A DNA stretch of 64,000 nucleotides from Plantibacter sp. VKM Ac-2880 (GTDB lineage Bacteria > Actinomycetota > Actinomycetes > Actinomycetales > Microbacteriaceae), in contig NZ_JADKSJ010000002.1 of NCBI RefSeq assembly GCF_015351235.1, positions 992,001 to 1,056,000 of the forward strand. The letters are read 5' to 3'. Under the pieces are notes generated by a model. It was not told the DNA's origin and ran no database searches. It saw only the letters and a program-made list of their open reading frames with translations. This document shows positions 12,497 to 22,186 of the stretch, piece after piece. Position 1 is the first letter of the stretch, and the number at the start of each line of letters is the position of its first letter. A program made the position numbers and the translations under genes.

Positions 12497-12574
12497 GCCG
12501 TCCCGATCGCCGAACCTGTCGGGGCCGTGTCTCCCCCACACTGGCCCCGGCAGGTTCAGCCATCGGGACGGCGA
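12497..12574 (+). terminator. Very long hairpin (31-base stem) after the acetyltransferase gene
   Basis: Bases 12497-12527 and 12544-12574 are inverted copies of each other with three mismatches over 31 bases, separated by a 16-base loop. It begins 5 bases after the acetyltransferase stop, so termination or mRNA stabilisation is likely. The length is unusual for a simple terminator. Confidence 0.75.
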
Positions 12575-12688
12575 TGCGTGTTCACAACGCAGGAGCGCCT
12601 CGGCGTGCCGCCGCAGACCGACGCCCGTCGTCGGCGACGCACCGGCGGCCTCCTGAGTTGCGCCCATAGGGTTCCGGTCGGTTCCAAT

Positions 12689-12700
12689 ATCCTATAGGAT
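12689..12700. promoter_or_regulatory. Palindromic operator ATCCTATAGGAT upstream of the kinase arm
   Basis: A perfect 12-base palindrome lies 57 bases before the DhaK-DhaL gene. The same sequence (11 of 12 bases) lies upstream of the opposite arm at 21323-21334. It is the best candidate site for the GntR regulator encoded at 15922. It includes TAGGAT, which could serve as a -10 element, so binding would block the promoter. Confidence 0.75.
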
Positions 12701-12756
12701 TATCGCGATGTACCGGCTGGTGCCGGATCGACGGACTCGATGACGAGGAGATGCAG

Positions 12757-14487
12757 ATGACCAGGCTCTGGAACCGGCCGGCGGACTTCGCCGATGAGAT
12801 GGTGGACGGGTTCGTCCGAGCCAACGGTCGTTGGGTGCGCAAGGTCTCCGGTGGCGTCTCCCGGTCCACGCGATCCGCCGAGCCCGAGGTCGCGCTCGTC
12901 ATCGGCGGCGGGTCGGGGCACTACCCCGCGTTCGCCGGCCTGGTCGGCCCCGGCCTCGCCCACGGTGCGGCGATGGGCAACCTGTTCGCCTCCCCCTCGG
13001 CCCACCAGGTCGAGAGCGTCATCCGCGCGAGCGAACAGGGCGAAGGCGTCCTGCTCAGCTACGGCAACTACGCGGGAGACGTGCTGCACTTCACCGCCGC
13101 GCAGGACGCCGTGCGCGCCGACGGCATCGACTGCCGCACGGTCACCGTGACCGACGACATCTTCAGCGCCCCGCCGACGGAACTCCAGAAGCGCCGCGGG
13201 ATCGCCGGCGACCTCACCGTCTTCAAGGTGGCGGGCGGGGCAGCCTCCAGCGGCTACCGCATCGACGACGTCGAGCGCGTCGCGATCCTCACGAACGCCC
13301 GCACCCGCTCGATGGGCGTCGCGTTCTCCGGGTGCACCCTGCCTGGTGCCGACGAGCCCCTGTTCTCCGTCCCGGAAGGGCGTATGGCCGTCGGGCTCGG
13401 CATCCACGGCGAGCCCGGCATCGACGAGACCGACATCCCGTCCGCCGACGGCCTCGCCGAGCTGTTCGTGCAGCACCTGCTCGACGACGCCGAGATCCCC
13501 GAGGGCGTCACGGTGGACGGCGCGCGCGTCGTCCCCATCCTCAACGGCCTCGGCTCGGTGAAGTCCGAGGAACTCTTCGTCGTCTACGACCGCGTCGCGA
13601 CGCTGCTCGAGGACGCGGGCGTCACCCTCGTGGACCCGCAGGTCGGTGAATTCTGCACAAGCTTCGACATGGCCGGCGTCTCCCTGACGCTGCTGTGGGT
13701 CGATGAAGAGCTCGAACAGCTGTGGAGCGCGCCCGCCGACACCCCGGCCTACCGCACCGGCGCGGTGGACACCGGCGCCCTCGAGACCGTGACCGCCGAG
13801 GACACCGAAGCCGCCGAGTTCGTCGTTCCGGAGGCGTCCGCCGAGTCACAGGAGTCCGCAGCCGTCGTCGCCACGGCCATCACGGCCATCCACGAGCTGA
13901 TCGCCGAGCACGCCGACGAACTCGGCCGACTCGACGCCATCGTCGGCGACGGCGACCACGGCATCGGGATGGACCGGGGGGCGACCGCAGCCGCCGAGGA
14001 GGCCGAACGTCTGCGAGCGGCCGGCGCCGGCGTCGCGACCGTGCTCGACCGAGCGGGCGACGCCTGGTCCGACCGGGCCGGCGGCACGTCCGGAGCCCTC
14101 TGGGGCGTCATGCTGCGCACCCTGGGCGAACGCCTCGGCGACACCGAGCGCCCGTCGGCCACCGCGGTCAGCGAGGGCGTCACCGCCGCGAAGGACGCCG
14201 TCATGCGCTACGGCAAGGCCTCCGTCGGCGACAAGACCCTCGTGGACGCCCTCGTGCCCTTCGCCGACACCCTCGCCGAACGGGTCACCGCGGGCGACGA
14301 CCTCCCCACCGCCTGGGCCACGGCGGCCGCAGTGGCCACCACCGCCGCCCACGACACGGCCGGACTCATGCCCGGCATGGGCCGCGCCCGCTCGCACGGC
14401 TCGAAGGCCGTCGGCGTCGAGGACCCCGGAGCCGTCTCCCTCGCCCTCATCGTCGAACGCGTCGGCGCCCTGCTGTCCGACCACTGA
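12757..14487 (+). CDS. Dihydroxyacetone-kinase-family fusion (DhaK-DhaL), probable erythrulose kinase
   Basis: This 576-residue protein joins a DhaK substrate domain (about 1-330; IGGGSGHYPAFAGL, GNYAGDVLHF, and His217 in GLGIHGEPG, the residue that covalently holds the keto sugar) to a DhaL nucleotide domain (about 355-575; DAIVGDGDHGIGMDRG Mg-ATP aspartates, DRAGGTSGALWG). Such fusions are ATP-dependent kinases of dihydroxyacetone or of tetruloses (LerK/DerK). The neighbours, two phosphotetrulose-type isomerases, favour erythrulose. The ATG at 12757 was preferred over 12751 because GAGGAG sits 6 bases before it. It is first in the arm. Confidence 0.88.
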   Translation: MTRLWNRPADFADEMVDGFVRANGRWVRKVSGGVSRSTRSAEPEVALVIGGGSGHYPAFAGLVGPGLAHGAAMGNLFASPSAHQVESVIRASEQGEGVLLSYGNYAGDVLHFTAAQDAVRADGIDCRTVTVTDDIFSAPPTELQKRRGIAGDLTVFKVAGGAASSGYRIDDVERVAILTNARTRSMGVAFSGCTLPGADEPLFSVPEGRMAVGLGIHGEPGIDETDIPSADGLAELFVQHLLDDAEIPEGVTVDGARVVPILNGLGSVKSEELFVVYDRVATLLEDAGVTLVDPQVGEFCTSFDMAGVSLTLLWVDEELEQLWSAPADTPAYRTGAVDTGALETVTAEDTEAAEFVVPEASAESQESAAVVATAITAIHELIAEHADELGRLDAIVGDGDHGIGMDRGATAAAEEAERLRAAGAGVATVLDRAGDAWSDRAGGTSGALWGVMLRTLGERLGDTERPSATAVSEGVTAAKDAVMRYGKASVGDKTLVDALVPFADTLAERVTAGDDLPTAWATAAAVATTAAHDTAGLMPGMGRARSHGSKAVGVEDPGAVSLALIVERVGALLSDH

Positions 14488-14507
14488 CCCGTCCCACCCA
14501 CCGACCC

Positions 14508-14572
14508 TCGAACGGCATCCCCGGTCCCTGAATCGACACCCCGGTCCCTGAGCTTGTCGAAGGGCCACCCAC
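14508..14572. repeat. Dispersed intergenic repeat between kinase and isomerase genes
   Basis: Two copies of CCCGGTCCCTGA are present, the second continuing as GAGCTTGTCGAAGGGC at about 14549-14564. The repeat sits inside what looks like a single operon (96-base gap), so it is probably transcribed. Confidence 0.75.
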
Positions 14573-14584
14573 GAAAGGCACACC

Positions 14585-15046
14585 ATGACCCGCACCTGGC
14601 GAATCGTCATCGGCTCGGATGACGCCGGCTACGACTACAAGGAGATCCTCAAGCGTGACCTCGAGGCGAGCGACCTGGTCGCCTCCGTGGTCGACGTCGG
14701 GGTCGACGCCGACGGCCACACCAACTACCCGACCGTCGCCGTGACGGCCGCAGAGATCGTCGCCCGCGGCGAGGCCGACCGGGCCCTGCTCATCTGCGGC
14801 ACGGGCCTCGGCGTCGCGATCGCGGCGAACAAGGTCCAGGGCATCCGGGCCGTCACCGCCCACGACGGCTTCTCCGTCGAACGCGCCGTGCTCTCCAACG
14901 ACGCCCAGGTGCTCTGCATGGGCCAGCGCGTCGTCGGCATCGAGCTGGCCCGCCGCAACGTCCGCGAATGGCTCACCTACGAGTTCGACACCACCAGCGC
15001 GTCGAACGACAAGGTGCAGGAGATCAGCGCGTACGAAGCCTCCTGA
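14585..15046 (+). CDS. RpiB/LacAB-family sugar-phosphate isomerase, probable D-erythrulose 4-phosphate isomerase (DerI/EryI-like)
   Basis: This 153-residue protein has the RpiB fold signature: [17 protein letters not shown] at the start (Asp instead of the usual His before AG), [40 protein letters not shown] with the catalytic Cys, and [33 protein letters not shown]. RpiB paralogs in tetritol pathways convert D-erythrulose 4-phosphate to D-erythrose 4-phosphate. That role is inferred from the adjacent kinase and TIM-like gene; ribose 5-phosphate isomerase remains possible. Its stop overlaps the next start by one base. Confidence 0.87.
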
Positions 15047-15855
15047 TGACCGACCACCCCCGCCCCATCCTCGTCGGCGTGAGTCTGAAGATGTACTTCG
15101 GCCACGTGCAGACGCTCGACTGGTGCTCGGCCGTCGCGGGGGTCACGGCCGAGCACCACGCCCTCCGGAGCGGCGCCGCCGAGCTGTTCGTCATCCCCGG
15201 TTACCTCTCGGTGACCGGAGCGGTCGAACGGCTCCGCGGCGTCGCGTCCGTCGGCGGTCAGGACCTCGCCACCGAGGACGCCGGTGCGTTCACGGGCGAG
15301 GTCAGCGGCGCGGCGCTCCGCGAGGTCGGCTGCGAGGTCGTCGAGGTCGGGCACGCCGAGCGTCGTCGACTGTTCGGCGAGACGCCCGACGTCGTCCGAG
15401 CGAAGACCACCGCCGCCCTCCGCAACGGGCTCGCTCCCGTGCTGTGCATCGGCGAGGCCACTCAGGAGGCCCCGGAGGACGCGGCCGCCTCATGCATCGA
15501 CCAACTCGACGACGCCCTCGCCGGAGCGGTGGCCGCGGGGATCGTCGGGCGGGTCATCGTCGCCTACGAGCCGCACTGGGCCATCGGCGCCGCCGAGCCC
15601 GCCGCCCCCGACCACATCAGGACGGTGTGCGCACGGCTCCGCGGCCATCTCGACGCGCTCGCCGAGCAAAGAGCGGTCAGCGCGTCCTCGGCCGTCATCT
15701 ACGGCGGCAGCGCCGGCCCCGGACTGTTGGCCACCATCGGCGACGCCGTGGACGGCCTCTTCCTCGGTCGCTTCGCCCACGACCCGGCGGCGCTCGCGCT
15801 CGTCCTCGATGAAGCGGCCGCCCTGCGGAGCACGGACGCCGACCTGCCGCGATGA
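15046..15855 (+). CDS. Triose-phosphate-isomerase-family protein, probable L-erythrulose 1-phosphate isomerase (LerI/EryH-like)
   Basis: This 269-residue TIM barrel keeps the catalytic residues: Lys15 (GVSLKMYF), His103 (EVVEVGHAERRRLFGE) and Glu175 (VAYEPHWAIG), plus the phosphate loop YGGSAGPGLL. The canonical N-W-K-M motif is replaced by S-L-K-M, which marks the paralog group found in sugar-alcohol operons rather than glycolytic TpiA. In that pathway it converts L-erythrulose 1-phosphate to D-erythrulose 4-phosphate. The assignment rests on motif plus context. It overlaps the RpiB-like gene (TGATG). Confidence 0.85.
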   Translation: MTDHPRPILVGVSLKMYFGHVQTLDWCSAVAGVTAEHHALRSGAAELFVIPGYLSVTGAVERLRGVASVGGQDLATEDAGAFTGEVSGAALREVGCEVVEVGHAERRRLFGETPDVVRAKTTAALRNGLAPVLCIGEATQEAPEDAAASCIDQLDDALAGAVAAGIVGRVIVAYEPHWAIGAAEPAAPDHIRTVCARLRGHLDALAEQRAVSASSAVIYGGSAGPGLLATIGDAVDGLFLGRFAHDPAALALVLDEAAALRSTDADLPR

Positions 15856-15921
15856 CGCCTGACGGCCCCGTAAACTGGACCTCGACGATCATCGCGGCAG
15901 CTCGACCGGGGGTCCCCCTCC

Positions 15922-16671
15922 GTGACGACGCCCCGAGCACACATTTCGGAGACCGCCGTGGTTGATGCCGTCTTCCCGCTCGGCGCCTCCTCCTCGCTCG
16001 AACGCCGCGGGCTCCGCGACCGGGTCTACGAGCTCGTGCTCGACATGCTCCTCAGCTCGGGCATCGAGCCCGGCGCCCGGCTGTCGATCGACGCCATCGC
16101 CCGCGACCTCGACGTCTCCCCGACGCCCGTCCGCGAAGCGCTCGTCCAGCTGGAGCGCACGGGCCTCGTCACCCGCGTCACGCACAAGGGCTACCGCGTC
16201 GCCCCGCCCCTCGCCGACGACCAGCTCGAGTCGCTGTTCGACGCACGCATCGTGCTCGAGAGCGGCGCGACCGCCCTCGCCGCAGCCCAGGCCGACGACC
16301 TCGTCCCAGCACTCGAGGTCGCCCTCGCCCGACACGTCGAGATGACCGCCAGGGTGCGGGCATCGGCGTCGACCGGCGAGATCCCTGTCGCCCTCCTGCG
16401 GGAGTACTTCGCGGTCGACTGGAACTTCCACCACCTCATCTTCGAAGGCACCCGCAACCCGTTCCTCCTCGACATGTCCGAGGGCATCTCGACCCGCGTG
16501 CACCGCATGCGCCAGACGGTGGAGACGGGCGTCACCGACGCCGACCAGGCCGTGGTCGAGCACCGGGCGATCCTCGACGCCTTCTCCGAGGGGCCGGAGG
16601 CCGCCGCGGCCGCCATGCGCTCCCACATCGAGCTCGTCCGGATGCGCGCCCGGAGCGACGCCGAGCACTGA
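15922..16671 (+). CDS. GntR-family regulator, FCD subfamily, probable regulator of the sugar-acid island
   Basis: This 249-residue regulator has an N-terminal winged helix at about 25-95 (SLERRGLRDRVYELVLDMLL, ARDLDVSPTPVREALVQLE) and an FCD effector domain at about 100-235 (FDARIVLESGATALAAAQA, DWNFHHLIFEGTRNPFL, EHRAILDAF). FCD proteins usually sense organic or sugar acids. It is last gene of the kinase arm and is the natural candidate for binding ATCCTATAGGAT at both ends of the island. The GTG start follows GGGGG at suitable spacing; GTG 15958 is an alternative. Confidence 0.9.
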   Translation: MTTPRAHISETAVVDAVFPLGASSSLERRGLRDRVYELVLDMLLSSGIEPGARLSIDAIARDLDVSPTPVREALVQLERTGLVTRVTHKGYRVAPPLADDQLESLFDARIVLESGATALAAAQADDLVPALEVALARHVEMTARVRASASTGEIPVALLREYFAVDWNFHHLIFEGTRNPFLLDMSEGISTRVHRMRQTVETGVTDADQAVVEHRAILDAFSEGPEAAAAAMRSHIELVRMRARSDAEH

Positions 16672-16787
16672 GCCACCCTGCCCCGCCCGGTCCCTCAGCC
16701 ACCCTGCCCCGCCCGGTCCCTGAGCCACCCTGCCCCGCCCGGTCCCTGAGCCACCCTGCCCCGGTCCCTGAGCTTGTCGAAGGGCGC
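16672..16787. repeat. Tandem repeat, four units of about 25 bases
   Basis: Four units of the form CCACCCTGCCCCGCCCGGTC followed by CCTGAG lie head to tail; the last lacks CGCCC and runs into GGTCCCTGAGCTTGTCGAAG. The unit therefore contains the start of the dispersed GGTCCCTGAG element. It lies between convergent genes. Units are contiguous with no unique spacers, so this is not CRISPR. Confidence 0.85.
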
Positions 16788-16792
16788 GCGAA

Positions 16793-16824
16793 ACGGGGCC
16801 GACCGCGTGAGCGATCGACCCCGT
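16793..16824. terminator. Bidirectional hairpin between the two arms of the island
   Basis: A 14-base stem with two mismatches (ACGGGGCCGACCGC against GCGATCGACCCCGT) and a GTGA loop lies 18 bases downstream of the MFS stop on the minus strand and also downstream of the GntR gene on the plus strand. Confidence 0.7.
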
Positions 16825-16842
16825 CCGGGTGCTGCCTCGTGA

Positions 16843-18213
16843 CTAGTGCGTACGGTTCGCCGTCGTCTCGAGCAGATCGTCCGCCTTCGCCCCGCGGAAG
16901 TACCTCGTGCAGTACAGCATCGCCGCCGCGAGGAACGCGAACACACCGAGCGACACCACGCCCCACGCGCCGCTGTCGGTCGGGACGCTCTCGTTGATCC
17001 CGGTGCGCATGATCGGCGCCACGAAGCCGCCGAGGTTACCGAGCGAGTTGATGAGGCCGATGCCGGCCGCTGCAGCGGTTCCGGTGAGGAACGCCGTCGG
17101 GTAGGCCCACGTGATCGGCCCGACCGAGAGGAAGCTCGCCACGGCGATCGTGATGAACAGGATGCCGAGGAACGGCTGGTTGTTCGCGCCGGCCCAGGCC
17201 GAGGCCAGGATGAAGACACCGGTCGAGATGTAGAACATCGTTCCCCAGGTGCGGCGGCGGACGACGGTGTTCGCGTTGCGGCCCACGTAGTAGCACGCGA
17301 ACAGACCCACGAGCCACGGGATGGCCGCCACGAGACCGACCTGCCAGCCGACGTCCTGACCGATGAGGTTGGAGACCTGCTGCGGCAGGTAGAAGGTCGT
17401 CCCGTAGACCGCGATCTGGAGGCAGAAGTAGATGATGGTGAAGTACCACACCTTCCAGCTCGTCATCGCCTTCACGATGCCGGTCGGGCCGTCCGACTGC
17501 CTCACGGTGTCCTCGCGTTCCATCGCGGCCGTCAACGAGTCCTTCTCCGACTGGTTCAGCCACTTCGCCTGTTGTGGCGAGTTGGTGAGGAAGTAGAGCG
17601 CCGCGAGTCCGGCGAGGACCGCGAGCATGCCCTCGGCGAAGAACATCACCTGCCAGCCGTGCCACGGGGTCAGGGCGTCCCCGAAGCTGATGAGGCCACC
17701 GCTGAGCGGGGCTCCGAGCATCTGCGAGAACGGCTGCGCCAGGTAGAAGATCGAGAACATCTGGACACGGACCTTGTTGGGGAACCACTCCGACAGGAAC
17801 ATGATGACGCCCGGGAAGAGACCGGCCTCGGTCACGCCCAACAGGAACCGCAGGATGATGAACATCGTGTCGCCCGTGGTGAACGCGAACAGGGCCGCCA
17901 CGATGCCCCAGGTCACCGCGATGCGGGCGAGCCAGAAGCGGGCGCCGAACTTCTTCAGCAACAGGTTGCTGGGGATCTCGAAGATCGCGTAGCCGATGAA
18001 GAAGATGCCGGCACCGAGGGCGAAGGCGCCGTTGGAGATGCCTCGGTCGACGCTGAGCGCCTCTTCGGCGAATCCGACGTTCGTGCGGTCGAGGAACGCG
18101 ACGAAGTACAGGATGACGAGCATGGGCATCAGGTGCTTCGACGCCTTGCGGATCGCCGACTTCAGGGCCGGATCGTTGGTCGATCCGATCGCCGGCGGAT
18201 TGGGTGTGGACAA
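16843..18213 (-). CDS. MFS transporter of the anion:cation symporter (ACS) type, probable sugar-acid importer
   Basis: This 456-residue, 12-helix MFS protein has the ACS hallmarks: LYFVAFLDRTNVGFAEEAL in helix 1, GYAIFEIPSNLLLKKFGARFW, and LLGVTEAGLFPGVIMFLSEWFP in helix 4. ACS carriers (tartrate, galactonate, glucarate, 4-hydroxyphenylacetate transporters) import organic anions with protons. This supports a carboxylated substrate for the island, unlike the neutral polyols of classical tetritol operons. It is last in the minus-strand arm, 68 bases after the small membrane peptide gene. Confidence 0.9.
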   Translation of the reverse strand: MSTPNPPAIGSTNDPALKSAIRKASKHLMPMLVILYFVAFLDRTNVGFAEEALSVDRGISNGAFALGAGIFFIGYAIFEIPSNLLLKKFGARFWLARIAVTWGIVAALFAFTTGDTMFIILRFLLGVTEAGLFPGVIMFLSEWFPNKVRVQMFSIFYLAQPFSQMLGAPLSGGLISFGDALTPWHGWQVMFFAEGMLAVLAGLAALYFLTNSPQQAKWLNQSEKDSLTAAMEREDTVRQSDGPTGIVKAMTSWKVWYFTIIYFCLQIAVYGTTFYLPQQVSNLIGQDVGWQVGLVAAIPWLVGLFACYYVGRNANTVVRRRTWGTMFYISTGVFILASAWAGANNQPFLGILFITIAVASFLSVGPITWAYPTAFLTGTAAAAGIGLINSLGNLGGFVAPIMRTGINESVPTDSGAWGVVSLGVFAFLAAAMLYCTRYFRGAKADDLLETTANRTH

Positions 18214-18280
18214 GACACTCTCCTTTGAGATGACTGGTGCGGGTGGGTGCTGCTGGTACTGCTGCTGCTGCGTGAGGTGG

Positions 18281-18391
18281 TCAGGAGACCAGTGACGGGA
18301 TGATCATCCAGAGGCCGATGCCGACGAAGACGATGCCGAGACCGAGGAAGATCAGCCGAGACTTGGTCCACTGACCGGTGAGGTGCTGCAT
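18281..18391 (-). CDS. 36-residue single-helix membrane peptide next to the MFS importer
   Basis: Translation on the minus strand from ATG 18391 gives 36 residues: a polar start (MQHLTGQWTKSR) and one strong hydrophobic segment (LIFLGLGIVFVGIGLWMII). A GGAG ribosome-binding site lies 8 bases upstream. The frame sits between the SDR and MFS genes in the same direction, so it is probably in the operon. An accessory small subunit of the transporter is a reasonable guess; the sequence shows no more than a one-pass membrane peptide. Confidence 0.65.
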   Translation of the reverse strand: MQHLTGQWTKSRLIFLGLGIVFVGIGLWMIIPSLVS

Positions 18392-18479
18392 GGTGCTGCT
18401 CCGTTCGCTCGTGGTGCGGGGTGGTGCGTGCACCGGCCGCACCCGGGATCGGGGCGGCCGGCTCGGTGCGGGAGACGAC

Positions 18480-19253
18480 TCAGTGCATGTAGAGGCCGCC
18501 GTCGACGTTCAGCGTCTGGCCGGTGACGAAGCCGGCGTCCTCACTGATGAGGTAGGCGATCGCGGCGGCGATGTCGCGCGGGGTGCCGATACGCGGGAGG
18601 ACGCCGTCGGCGGCCATCGCCGTCTTGCGCTCCTCCGTCAGGGTGCCGCCCATGATGTCGGTGTCGATGGGGCCGGGCGAGATGGCGTTGACGGTGATGC
18701 CGTCGTGACCGAGTTCGCGCGCGACGCTGCGGGTGAAGCCGATGACGCCGGCCTTCGCCGCCGAGTAGGCCGTCTTGCTGAACGTGCCGCCGCCGCGCTG
18801 GGCGGAGACGGACGACAGGCTGACGACGCGCCCGACGCCGTTCGCCACCATCGACTCCACGGCACGACGGGTCGTGTAGTGGACGCCGTTGAGGTTGATG
18901 TCGATGACGCGCTTCCACTCGTCCGCGCTCACCTCGAGGTACGGCACTGGCGAGGCCACACCGGCGAGGTTGACGAGCGCGACGAGCTGCGGGAGGGCTG
19001 CCTCGAGGGCGTCGAACGCGGCACGCACCTGCGCCTCGTCGGCGACGTTCGCGCCGGCGCCGGCCGCCTGCACACCGTGCTGCTCCGCGATCTCCGCGGC
19101 GACGGCTTGCGCGGCCGCCTTGTCGAGGTCGATGATCCCGATGTTCCACCCCAGCTCGGCGAGGTGGTGGGCGGACGCGCGCCCGATGCCGCGCGGGGAA
19201 GCCGCCCCGGTGAGGACGACGGTCTTGGACTCGGGGAACGTGGTGGCGGTCAT
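18480..19253 (-). CDS. Short-chain dehydrogenase/reductase (SDR)
   Basis: This 257-residue classical SDR has the NAD(P) motif TGAASPRGIGRASA, an acidic residue after strand 2 (IIDLDKA, suggesting NAD preference), NLAGVA, the catalytic Ser in SLSSVSAQRGG and YSAAK for Tyr/Lys. It ends DVDGG-like in LNVDGGLYMH. SDRs in tetritol and sugar-acid clusters oxidise a secondary alcohol; the exact step here is unknown. AAAGG precedes the ATG. It lies between the 3-hydroxyacyl-CoA-dehydrogenase-like gene and the small membrane peptide in the minus-strand arm. Confidence 0.9.
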   Translation of the reverse strand: MTATTFPESKTVVLTGAASPRGIGRASAHHLAELGWNIGIIDLDKAAAQAVAAEIAEQHGVQAAGAGANVADEAQVRAAFDALEAALPQLVALVNLAGVASPVPYLEVSADEWKRVIDINLNGVHYTTRRAVESMVANGVGRVVSLSSVSAQRGGGTFSKTAYSAAKAGVIGFTRSVARELGHDGITVNAISPGPIDTDIMGGTLTEERKTAMAADGVLPRIGTPRDIAAAIAYLISEDAGFVTGQTLNVDGGLYMH

Positions 19254-19315
19254 GGCCGGCCTTTCTGCGTGAGGGGGTCGAGGGCTGCGGTGTCCGGCTG
19301 GACCGGACGGCCTGC

Positions 19316-20269
19316 TCAGTGGATGGGGGCCGGCCCGAGCTCGTCCATGAGCTGCTTGATCGCGACGTAGGCCTTGTTGCGGTAGGCGATGAGTTCCGGC
19401 GTGCGGTCGGCGGGCACGTCGAGGTAGCCGGCTCCGGACTTGGTGCCGAACTTGCCGGCGTCGACGAGCTCCTTGAGGGAGTCCGGCGTGGCGAAGCGCT
19501 CGGGCCAGCGGGTCTGGAGCGAGGCGTAGCAGAACGAGTACACGTCGAGCCCGGCCATGTCGGCGATCGCGAACGGCCCGAAGACGGGCAGCCGGAAACC
19601 GAACGTCGTGCGCACGATGGTGTCGATGTCCTCCGCCGTCGCGACGCCTTCCTCGACGAGCTGCGTCGCCTCGTGGAACAGGGCGTACTGCAGGCGGTTG
19701 AGCACGAAGCCGGTGGAGTCCTTGACCCGGGCGGTCTCCTTGCCGGTGGCGGCGACGATCTCCTCGACGGTCGCGATCGCCGCGTCGGCGGTGGTCTCGT
19801 GGGGGATCAGCTCGACGCCCGGGATGAACGGTGCCGGGTTCGAGAAGTGGACGCCGAGGAACCGTTCCGGGTTCGTGACGGCCTCGGCGAGCGAGCCGAT
19901 GAGGATGGTCGAGGTGTTCGAACCGATGATCGCGTCGGGCGAGGCAGCCGCACTGATGCGGCGGAGGGTCTCGTGCTTGATCTCGATCTTCTCTGGGACG
20001 GCCTCCTCGATGAAGTCGGCACCGGTCACGGCCTCCTCGATGGACGCGGCCGGCGAGACGTTCGCGCGGATCCGCTCGACGGCGTCGGCGGGGAAGAGGC
20101 CGTCGGCGACGAACTGCTCGGCCTCGGCGATGAGGCGGTCGTAGTTCTTGCGCGCGATCTCCTCAGAGATGTCGGCGATGCGGACGGTGGCGCCGGACAG
20201 TGCGAGCACCTGGGCGATGCCGCCGCCCATGTAACCCGATCCGACGACGGCGATGGTGTGTGCAGTCAT
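19316..20269 (-). CDS. 3-hydroxyacyl-CoA-dehydrogenase-family oxidoreductase, probable sugar-acid 3-dehydrogenase or oxidoisomerase
   Basis: This 317-residue protein has an N-terminal Rossmann domain (AVVGSGYMGGGIAQVLALSG) and the family helix-rich C-terminal domain (VKDSTGFVLNRLQYALFHEA, FGFRLPVFGPFAIADMAGLD). The canonical sites are present: SNTSTI and the His of GVHFSNPAP. No other fatty-acid genes are near. Relatives such as L-gulonate 3-dehydrogenase oxidise the C3 hydroxyl of sugar acids, and the downstream AP-endonuclease-2-like gene could decarboxylate the 3-keto product. That role is inferred; a true acyl-CoA substrate is not excluded. The ATG at 20269 is where similarity begins. Confidence 0.85.
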   Translation of the reverse strand: MTAHTIAVVGSGYMGGGIAQVLALSGATVRIADISEEIARKNYDRLIAEAEQFVADGLFPADAVERIRANVSPAASIEEAVTGADFIEEAVPEKIEIKHETLRRISAAASPDAIIGSNTSTILIGSLAEAVTNPERFLGVHFSNPAPFIPGVELIPHETTADAAIATVEEIVAATGKETARVKDSTGFVLNRLQYALFHEATQLVEEGVATAEDIDTIVRTTFGFRLPVFGPFAIADMAGLDVYSFCYASLQTRWPERFATPDSLKELVDAGKFGTKSGAGYLDVPADRTPELIAYRNKAYVAIKQLMDELGPAPIH

Positions 20270-20294
20270 GGGGTTGCTCCTGTGATCGTTTCGG

Positions 20295-21266
20295 TCAGGC
20301 CTGCGGCAGCAGGGTCCTGATGTACTTCTGGTTGGTGGAACACATGCCGAGGCTGTCGCCGCCGTAGTGCTCGGCCAGGATGATGCCGTTGAAGCCGAGT
20401 TCGACGGCGTCGCGGAAGACCTGGCGGTAGTTGATGAGGCCGGCCTCCATGGTGGAGGGGACGGACGTCGCCCAGCTGCCGTCGGCCGCCTCGTCACGCG
20501 TGTAGTTCTTCACGTGCATGTAGTTGGCGTACGGCAGGGTCTTGGCGAACAGCTCGCGCCAATCCTCGACGGGGCGGTGCAGGCGGATGAGGTTCGCGAC
20601 GTCGGGGTTCAGGCCCACGTTGTCAAGGCCGACCTCCTCCACGAACCGGACCGCGCTGTCGGCGGTGCCGAGGTAGGTGTCCTCGTACAGCTCGAGGGCG
20701 AGGGGCAGCCCGACGTCCGCGGCGTGCTTGCCGAGCTCGCGGATGCGGCTGACGGCGGCGTTCCAGACCTCCGGGTCGTCGGGGTCCTTCGGCCCCTGCG
20801 CCGTCCAGAACCAGAGCGCCTTCCGCTGCGCCTCGCTGAAGGGCTGGTGCAGGCCGGTGGAGAAGACCCGCATGCCCCACTCCGCAGCGGCGTCGATGGT
20901 GCGGTGCGCGTACTCGAGGTTGCGCTCCTCGTGGCCGGGCATGATGACGCTCTGGCGCTGCAGGTGGACGGAGGGGACACCGACGCCGTGCGACTTCGCG
21001 ATGGCGAGGAACTCGTCACGACGCGAGGGCTCGAGGTCGGCCGGGCGCACGTGGCTGTCCGGCAGCTCGGCGAGGGTGAAGCCGACGCCGGCGACCTGCG
21101 CGAAGAGGTCGTCCCAGGCTTCCGGCTCGGCGTCGTGCAGCGAGACGCCATTGCGGTCGACCGGCGGGATGCCGTGGAGGCAGGTGGCGATGGGCCAGGT
21201 CTCAGCGGTCCAGGTGGTCTTCGACGACGCCGGGTTCGGCGATGCGGTCGCGTTCGTATCCGTCAT
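20295..21266 (-). CDS. AP-endonuclease-2-like TIM barrel (sugar-phosphate isomerase/epimerase fold), candidate 3-keto sugar-acid decarboxylase
   Basis: This 323-residue protein has the xylose-isomerase-like TIM-barrel pattern with metal ligands in likely positions: LAELPDSHV, SVHLQRQSV, LALELYEDTYLG (Glu), LNPDVANL (Asp), MHVKNYTRDE (His) and IILAEHYGG (Glu). Members include epimerases, isomerases and 3-oxo-isoapionate decarboxylase (OiaC), which forms L-erythrulose. Given the erythrulose-type kinase and isomerases in the other arm, the OiaC-like role is the most economical, but it is inferred. GGAG precedes the ATG. It is the first gene of the minus-strand arm. Confidence 0.82.
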   Translation of the reverse strand: MTDTNATASPNPASSKTTWTAETWPIATCLHGIPPVDRNGVSLHDAEPEAWDDLFAQVAGVGFTLAELPDSHVRPADLEPSRRDEFLAIAKSHGVGVPSVHLQRQSVIMPGHEERNLEYAHRTIDAAAEWGMRVFSTGLHQPFSEAQRKALWFWTAQGPKDPDDPEVWNAAVSRIRELGKHAADVGLPLALELYEDTYLGTADSAVRFVEEVGLDNVGLNPDVANLIRLHRPVEDWRELFAKTLPYANYMHVKNYTRDEAADGSWATSVPSTMEAGLINYRQVFRDAVELGFNGIILAEHYGGDSLGMCSTNQKYIRTLLPQA

Positions 21267-21322
21267 GATGCTCCATTGCGCTCAGGGATTGCTGCCCGGG
21301 GGTGATGCTCCCGGTGAAAAAG

Positions 21323-21334
21323 ATCCTATAGGAA
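21323..21334. promoter_or_regulatory. Operator ATCCTATAGGAA upstream of the minus-strand arm
   Basis: This site matches the palindrome at 12689-12700 in 11 of 12 bases and lies 57 bases before the start of the first gene of this arm, the same distance as at the other arm. An adjacent AAACCGTTTCC at about 21340-21350 could be a second, different element. The shared spacing supports coordinate control of both arms. Confidence 0.75.
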
Positions 21335-21360
21335 ATAGTAAACCGTTTCCGGGAATACGC

Positions 21361-21484
21361 AAGAGCACCTCGACAGGCTCTGTGACCGGTCGTGCTGACG
21401 ACCCCGCCGACCGCCGGGTTCCGGGGTCACCGAGCCCGAACCGGTCACCGAGCCCAACCCGGTCACCGAGCTTGTCGAGGTGCG
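21361..21484. repeat. Dispersed intergenic repeat, GGTCACCGAGCC variant
   Basis: An ACCTCGACAGGCTCTGTGACC copy is followed by three tandem GGTCACCGAGC units, the last continuing TTGTCGAGGTGC. It is the inverted-orientation form of the repeat family and lies at the boundary of the sugar-acid island. Confidence 0.75.
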
Positions 21485-21490
21485 GCCGCC

Positions 21491-22186
21491 TCAGCTGTCG
21501 AGGATGTCCCAGTCCTCGTCGTCCGCGTCGGCGATGCCGCCCGCGATGAACGCCTCGCCGGCCTCGGTCGCGCGATCGCGCACCGCGAGCAGCAACTCCT
21601 CGAGGGAGCCTGCCGAGAGGAACCGCATCTGGTCGAGCTCGCTCACGGGCGCGATGCCCGCGAGCTGCCATGACGACTCGAGCGGGTCGTCGGCGAGCTC
21701 GACCACCGAAGCCCACTGCTGCTCACTGAACTCACTCGCCACCGCGAGCGAGCGACGGACGGCCGCCTCGGTCTCGCCGCGCAGCGACTCGAACCGGTCG
21801 TCCCACTCCAGGTCGTCGAGCGTTCGGATCTCGGCACGTGGATACGGGTCGTCGGGCAACCAGTCGGTGACCTCGAAACGCTGACCACCCTCGGCGATCA
21901 CCGCGACGAACCCCTCGCCGCCGTCGACCTCGACGATCTCGGCGACCGTGCCCGTCCGGAAGCGGTGTTCGCCGCCACCCGTCTCCCGGCCGCGCTCGAT
22001 GAGCACCACGCCGAACGCCGGGTCCTCCGCTTCGAGGAGGTGGGCGAGCATCGTGAGGTAGCGCTCCTCGAACAGCCGGAGCGCGAGCGGCATGTGCGGG
22101 AACAGCACGGAGCCGAGCGGGAACATCGGGAGTTCGAGGACGGGGAGTCCTGAGGCCCAGGGCTCGGGACTGAGGGGGTCGGTCAT
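21491..22186 (-). CDS. LON substrate-binding-domain protein
   Basis: This 231-residue protein is a stand-alone LON N-terminal domain: LPVLELPMFPLGSVLFPHMPLALRLFEERYLTML near the start and FGVVLIERGRETGGGEHRFRTGTVAEI are typical. There is no ATPase or Ser/Lys protease domain. Such proteins are cytoplasmic and of uncertain role (possibly chaperone-like or substrate-recognition). The C-terminal half is acidic and helical. The start is at the conserved beginning, 100 bases from the next gene. Confidence 0.88.
   Translation of the reverse strand: MTDPLSPEPWASGLPVLELPMFPLGSVLFPHMPLALRLFEERYLTMLAHLLEAEDPAFGVVLIERGRETGGGEHRFRTGTVAEIVEVDGGEGFVAVIAEGGQRFEVTDWLPDDPYPRAEIRTLDDLEWDDRFESLRGETEAAVRRSLAVASEFSEQQWASVVELADDPLESSWQLAGIAPVSELDQMRFLSAGSLEELLLAVRDRATEAGEAFIAGGIADADDEDWDILDS

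Follow-up and report, generated by a model that had tools for sequence, protein, structure and literature searches.

Carter et al. (2018) reportedly described a D-apionate route that runs through ApnO, OiaC, LerK, LerI and DerI, and Stack et al. (2020) are said to have described an L-ascorbate pathway with an amidohydrolase lactonase and a PdxA-family decarboxylase. L-gulonate 3-dehydrogenase (lambda-crystallin) belongs to the 3-hydroxyacyl-CoA dehydrogenase (HCDH) family, and its reaction is followed by decarboxylation to L-xylulose. The activities of LerK, LerI and DerI are given as those of tetritol enzymes in the accessible part of PMC10733421, and the accessible part of PMC11747546 names apiose-route enzymes, OiaC not among them. 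Here, we analysed a 64,000-nucleotide stretch of Plantibacter sp. VKM Ac-2880 (contig NZ_JADKSJ010000002.1, positions 992,001 to 1,056,000; hereafter the window), which holds a nine-gene island of four plus-strand and five minus-strand genes converging on each other. We lean, with modest confidence, towards reading this island as one regulon for the catabolism of a free sugar acid through 3-oxidation, decarboxylation to L-erythrulose and the LerK, LerI and DerI reactions.

A palindrome shared by the two converging arms

Gene calls agree with the two convergent arms of four and five genes that an earlier reading of the letters alone (the sequence-only reading) had described, and Pfam returns the families it had named: kinase, isomerases, GntR, major facilitator superfamily (MFS), short-chain dehydrogenase/reductase (SDR), HCDH-like and AP-endonuclease-2-like (APE2). 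The palindromes at the outer ends, described there as identical, are near-identical rather than identical (ATCCTATAGGAT versus TTCCTATAGGAT, in arm direction). The 57-base spacing to the first start codon holds for both arms when measured from the palindrome edge nearest the gene, provided that the DhaK-DhaL kinase gene (DhaKL) starts at ATG 12757. Its frame is also open from ATG 12751; we favour 12757 because the ribosome-binding site GAGGAG precedes it, 6 nt ahead, and the paralogue in the second cluster described below begins MTRLFN. Across the 4.03-Mb genome, the 10-bp core TCCTATAGGA occurs at this island only, at both sites, and the 12-mer with at most one mismatch is found at the same two places only; a reversed control pattern gave 0 and 1 matches per strand. 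With up to two mismatches, the window contains four strand-matches against 0.45 expected, and four or more were reached in 1 of 100 shuffles.

Related loci were collected by similarity to APE2, which has matches at E <= 1e-3 in 88 of 199 family genomes. The 125 loci comprise the window itself, 40 stretches selected among the family-genome matches, the best 80 of 91 relatives and four plasmid regions of the 93 records with a match, and removal of nine duplicates left 116 distinct loci. A gene was scored as present when it lay within 12 kb and passed an identity cut-off chosen gene by gene; several loci end at a contig or stretch edge, and L170 and L171 stand outside the counts. The loci are related rather than independent, with Curtobacterium alone supplying 29 of the 80 named ones, and the counts are not frequencies in nature.

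We found the core upstream of APE2 in 87 of the 116 distinct loci; 92 loci have DhaKL, and in 44 of these the core precedes that gene. The 2,318,442 bases of related loci contain 139 core sites, against 0, 0, 0, 0, 1 and 0 sites for six further 10-bp palindromes, one of them the reversed core. The core precedes DhaKL in 41 of 52 cases when the gene heads its own operon and in 3 of 42 when it lies behind another island gene. Counted with slightly different HCDH and PdxA cut-offs, the core before APE2 was present in loci with HCDH only (80/90), PdxA only (6/15), both (1/1) and neither (0/10). This conservation, together with the tracking of operon structure, bears out the earlier proposal of one regulon with a shared operator, and island plus palindrome is a conserved regulon. 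The FCD-GntR regulator, in which the GntR helix-turn-helix and the FCD domain are both present, is presumably the ligand of the palindrome, given that 98 of the 116 loci have, within 12 kb, a GntR with 38% identity or more; because both promoters carry the palindrome, we presume the regulon to be under its control.

The proposed route and its back half

In the proposed route, the MFS permease would import the sugar acid, the HCDH-family enzyme would oxidise its 3-hydroxyl with NAD, and the APE2-like barrel would decarboxylate the resulting 3-oxo acid to L-erythrulose. DhaKL, as LerK, would phosphorylate L-erythrulose at C1, the LerI-like member of the triosephosphate isomerase (TIM) family would turn the product into D-erythrulose 4-phosphate, and the DerI-like member of the RpiB family would turn this into D-erythrose 4-phosphate. 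The parts are ordinary and their combination is not: probably an acid-sugar-to-L-erythrulose route with different front enzymes. Among the literature matches listed, titles and abstract openings do not describe this gene set or a pentonate-to-erythrulose route, and we make no claim of novelty in print.

Homology supports the LerK-DerI-LerI back half that had been recognised from the sequence. A second cluster in the same genome (L163:5235-15136, contig C1, near 397 kb) carries genes for an FCD-GntR, an MFS protein, LerK, DerI, LerI, OiaC-like and ApnO-like proteins, an SDR and a protein of 639 aa that has no match in Pfam, the roles being predicted from sequence. The island DhaKL, RpiB and TIM are 64, 78 and 61% identical to the trio of this apionate-type cluster, and RpiB is 30% identical to the third RpiB-like place in the genome. 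DhaKL scored 734.6 bits against PRK14479 (cut-off 492), and its substrate is predicted to be L-erythrulose.

A TIM tree of 24 rows, 18 of them island TIMs and 6 others, was built by a quick method. The island TIMs group with those of the own-genome apionate-type cluster, a Pantoea apionate-type operon, a Klebsiella plasmid and an Arthrobacter DhaK-RpiB-TIM cluster, and the TIM of the window island stands apart (SH-aLRT 96) from the canonical TIM of its genome (37% identity), in which there are three TIM-like places. On this evidence the island TIM groups with the LerI type and appears distinct from glycolytic TIM. The TIM of a rhizobial apionate-type cluster joined the canonical TIM, with a program warning that two long branches had been joined.

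Dehydrogenase and barrel in the front half

HCDH lies near APE2 in 91 of the 116 loci, and these HCDH-type loci hold DhaKL in 79 cases, TIM in 71 and RpiB in 59. The enzyme has the 3HCDH_N and 3HCDH domains, and its S-N-T-S, H, E and N motifs, which we take to be catalytic, are kept across 90 distinct sequences. The best match in the PDB is 4om8 (E 2.3e-50), whose name implies a free pyridine carboxylate as substrate, not a CoA ester. Comparison with L-gulonate 3-dehydrogenase, which the sequence-only reading had suggested, did not place lambda-crystallin closest, and other PDB chains scored higher. APE2 shares the E-x-YE, D-xx-N, H-x-K and final E positions with a Pantoea operon barrel and with the barrel of the own-genome second cluster. 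Neither APE2 nor HCDH matched an NCBIfam model at its cut-off. The SDR had been given a part in the front half; we place it outside the island core because 16 of the 91 HCDH-type loci are without it within 12 kb. It is FabG-like in NCBIfam, where none of the best 25 of 225 rows reached its cut-off, and FabG-type names are among its PDB sequence matches.

At sister loci, a PdxA-family enzyme takes the place of HCDH beside APE2, and the PdxA family likewise oxidises a 3-hydroxyl. One locus (L101:10016-18485) holds an HCDH/SDR/MFS arm and a PdxA/tripartite-tricarboxylate arm, with the core before each. The 13 PdxA-type loci carry an Amidohydro_2 protein in 6 cases and DhaKL in 9. On rhizobial plasmids (L153, L154, L155), one block of GntR, PdxA, TctCBA, APE2 (48-49% identical) and a DhaK-family kinase is a candidate acid-sugar operon. 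In one genome of another family in the same class (L171:5150-12520), TIM-RpiB-DhaKL-GntR adjoins a divergent APE2-HCDH-GntP, with one core before DhaKL. The claim of an acid-type importer is supported: the importers that replace the MFS protein include GntP (L044, L045, L171) and tripartite tricarboxylate systems, both for organic acids, and neighbouring importers are mostly acid-type. For the island MFS protein, the best NCBIfam model was the D-galactonate transporter TIGR00893 (259.7 bits, under the cut-off of 395).

Several observations weigh against the sugar-acid route. PdxA enzymes can decarboxylate alone, so APE2 may act otherwise in PdxA loci. The core is missing before APE2 in 29 of the 116 loci, and 13 loci are without HCDH and PdxA above the cut-offs, 3 of these being rhizobial with an annotated PdxA; among the remaining ten, L053 has APE2, SDR and the whole trio, and no HCDH. 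Rathayibacter loci have no LerI near by. RpiB passes the cut-off of the actinobacterial ribose-5-phosphate isomerase model RPI_actino (207.6 versus 168.2) and falls below that of rhizobial DerI (138.4 versus 240). The D-xx-N and H-x-K positions also occur in another PF01261 protein, 3tva, and hence are not decarboxylase-specific. Importer genes of the ATP-binding cassette (ABC) type lie beside the island in L068, with relatives of these genes beside an SBP_bac_1 protein in L044, and the second PDB match of HCDH, 3mog, a probable 3-hydroxybutyryl-CoA dehydrogenase (E 3.3e-50), nearly ties with 4om8; we lowered our confidence because of this CoA-type match and the L068 importer.

A possible substrate

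A need for LerI would make the tetrulose L-erythrulose and, therefore, a linear substrate an L-pentonate; the free sugar acid is most likely a five-carbon (C5) L-aldonate. Many plant- or soil-associated genera are found among the named relatives of the locus (Curtobacterium, Clavibacter, Rathayibacter, Sinomonas, Arthrobacter and Sinorhizobium), so the substrate may be a common plant compound. Our leading guess is an L-pentonate from plant ascorbate breakdown. The amidohydrolase in 6 of the 13 PdxA loci recalls the bacterial ascorbate pathway that has reportedly been published; the window island itself is without threonate-type or amidohydrolase genes.

A scheme in the accessible part of PMC10733421 requires LerI only when the tetrulose is L-erythrulose. 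Ascorbate breakdown in plants gives L-threonate and, via diketogulonate and 2-carboxy-lactones, slowly L-lyxonate and L-xylonate, as stated in the part of PMC11066805 at hand; 2-keto-L-xylonate likewise arises from it (PMC6225978, in part), and PMC12540250, in the part at hand, concerns an Arthrobacter L-threonate route. Circumstantial evidence of this kind makes it conceivable, though rather unlikely, that the island forms the C5 branch of a plant-ascorbate salvage regulon. HCDH would then oxidise C3 of L-xylonate or L-lyxonate, acids that the SDR may make by reducing 2-keto-L-xylonate; the net result would be a redox-neutral shift of the carbonyl from C2 to C3. The PdxA arm of sister loci would take 2-carboxy-L-lyxonate to the same 3-oxo-L-pentonate, APE2 would be a new 3-oxo-pentonate decarboxylase that yields L-erythrulose, and neighbouring L-threonate genes of some relatives would serve the C4 branch. 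If true, carbon would enter metabolism at erythrose 4-phosphate, by another way than the published L-lyxonate route.

Alternative readings

APE2 might instead be an epimerase or isomerase, acting on a tetrulose or, as OtnI does, from a 2-oxo to a 3-oxo acid, with CO2 lost spontaneously or through the dehydrogenase; we consider this possible but unlikely. Ketose 3-epimerases of the tagatose/psicose type show D-xx-H and H-x-S where APE2 has D-xx-N and H-x-K, which lowers a ketose epimerase identity. An erythrulose 3-epimerase would, moreover, make LerI needless, yet TIM is present in 71 of the 91 HCDH-type loci.

We regard a tetritol or C4-acid substrate, with the HCDH/APE2 pair on a side branch, as improbable. 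LerK, LerI and DerI are indeed tetritol enzymes (PMC10733421, in part), one DhaK-RpiB-TIM cluster carries alcohol dehydrogenases and an ABC importer, and 11 of the 116 loci, all HCDH-type, have within 12 kb genes for both a threonate-dehydrogenase-like protein (E 7.5e-70; 235.7 bits versus a cut-off of 350) and a DUF1537-type kinase. However, Pfam places no polyol dehydrogenase family in the island core, the importers are mostly acid-type, and a C4 acid passing through 3-oxidation and decarboxylation would end as dihydroxyacetone, leaving LerI and DerI without a use.

The sequence-only reading had matched the front half to the D-apionate route. A Pantoea plasmid operon carries, in a row, an MFS protein, a DhaK-family kinase, TIM, a PF01261 barrel and a PGDH_C protein, and on a rhizobial plasmid TIM and RpiB occur together with a protein annotated as 'phosphogluconate dehydrogenase C-terminal domain', next to one annotated as OiaX. 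Going by operon context and this place beside OiaX, we take the Pantoea barrel to be OiaC and the PGDH_C protein to be ApnO; the OiaC-like and ApnO-like proteins of the own-genome second cluster are 50 and 59% identical to them. Against the OiaC-like barrel, APE2 gave no significant BLASTP match, although both belong to the same Pfam family, and against the ApnO-like protein, HCDH gave none; the ApnO-like protein is of PGDH_C type and the island dehydrogenase of 3HCDH type. The apionate-operon barrel had no NCBIfam match at E 1e-20, and PDB sequence searches with the OiaC-like barrel and with the sister-locus amidohydrolase and PdxA returned general or unrelated family names only. Matches to the ApnO-like protein at E <= 1e-20 occur in 47 of 199 family genomes, and 44 of these reach at least 55% identity. 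A window-like APE2 (at least 69% identity) is present in 24 family genomes, 15 of which also match the ApnO-like protein and 9 of which do not; the island and the apionate-type system are therefore independent. The core palindrome was not found at the second cluster on contig C1.

A dehydrogenase paired with a PF01261 barrel stands, as does its being a variant, and the D-apionate assignment is rejected, given the separate cluster and the lack of significant similarity of both key enzymes. We also think it improbable that the island runs the D-apionate route with non-homologous enzymes standing in for ApnO and OiaC: the back half, the order of reaction types, the pairing of a dehydrogenase with a PF01261 barrel and the active-site positions in common with OiaC-like barrels would fit it, but the genome has a separate ApnO-like/OiaC-like cluster with its own LerK-DerI-LerI and without the core, most genomes with a close APE2 (15 of 24) also match the ApnO-like protein, and ApnO couples oxidation to a carbon-skeleton shift, which we know of no HCDH to do. 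The sugar-acid route would run parallel to, and separate from, the apionate-type cluster.

Features of the island

Table 1. Genes and putative operators of the island (window positions)
Feature	Position	Strand	Family or sequence
Operator palindrome (putative), DhaKL arm	12689-12700	.	ATCCTATAGGAT, perfect
DhaKL, DhaK-DhaL fusion kinase, LerK-like (putative L-erythrulose 1-kinase)	12757-14487	+	Dak1 + Dak2 (Pfam)
RpiB-family isomerase, putatively DerI-like	14585-15046	+	LacAB_rpiB, PF02502
TIM-family isomerase, putatively LerI-like	15046-15855	+	TIM, PF00121
FCD-GntR regulator, presumed palindrome ligand	15922-16671 (start 15922 or 15958)	+	GntR PF00392 + FCD PF07729
MFS permease, anion-symporter type	16843-18213	-	MFS_1, PF07690
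36-aa peptide, single transmembrane segment, directly 5' of MFS gene	18281-18391	-	sequence; no Pfam match
SDR dehydrogenase, accessory	18480-19253	-	adh_short_C2, PF13561
HCDH-family dehydrogenase, proposed sugar-acid 3-dehydrogenase	19316-20269	-	3HCDH_N PF02737 + 3HCDH PF00725
APE2, AP-endonuclease-2-like TIM barrel, proposed 3-oxo-acid decarboxylase	20295-21266	-	AP_endonuc_2, PF01261
Operator palindrome (putative), APE2 arm	21323-21334	.	ATCCTATAGGAA on +, TTCCTATAGGAT reading towards APE2

The nearest named loci are from Plantibacter (APE2 95-96% identical), and in a 396-genome sample of the phylum APE2 has matches at E <= 1e-40 in 4 genomes, its own included. The 36-aa peptide is possibly a small partner of the MFS permease; homologues occur in 25 of the 116 loci, many with a W-[ST]-K-[SG]-R..FL motif. 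No consensus promoter or intrinsic terminator was detected in 12500-21500. Between the converging arms lies a 26-bp tandem repeat of 3.7 copies (16668-16763). A near-palindromic repeat, CCCTGAGCTTGTCGAAGGG, has seven copies in the window with up to two mismatches (at 261, 312, 347, 9156, 14546, 16766 and 30157; expected 0.00), and both exact copies fall inside the island.

Comparison with known systems

With the D-apionate route, the island has in common a dehydrogenase and a PF01261 barrel leading to L-erythrulose and on through LerK, LerI and DerI, plus an MFS gene; it differs in that the dehydrogenase is HCDH instead of PGDH_C and that BLASTP finds no significant match between its barrel and the OiaC-like one. 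The back half is that of tetritol catabolism through LerK-LerI-DerI (PMC10733421, in the part at hand), whereas the island is without a tetritol dehydrogenase and entry is seemingly by an acid. Like L-gulonate 3-dehydrogenase, the island HCDH is proposed to act on the 3-hydroxyl of a free aldonate before CO2 is lost, but that enzyme leads from C6 to C5, and its lambda-crystallin structure 3f3s matched HCDH at E 2.3e-33 against 2.3e-50 for 4om8. The L-ascorbate pathway finds a parallel in the Amidohydro_2 protein of the PdxA-type sister loci; these differ in carrying APE2 and mostly DhaKL, and both PdxA and amidohydrolase are absent from the window island.

If the sugar-acid route is true, routes through three mutually unrelated dehydrogenase families (ApnO, HCDH and PdxA), each beside a PF01261 barrel, would share L-erythrulose as their point of entry, and the sharply defined operator would let the substrate be traced through induction. 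The route would also assign a role to a barrel family that is uncharacterised but has a solved structure, PDB 5tnv, a xylose-isomerase-like barrel from Mycobacterium smegmatis whose title names no function.

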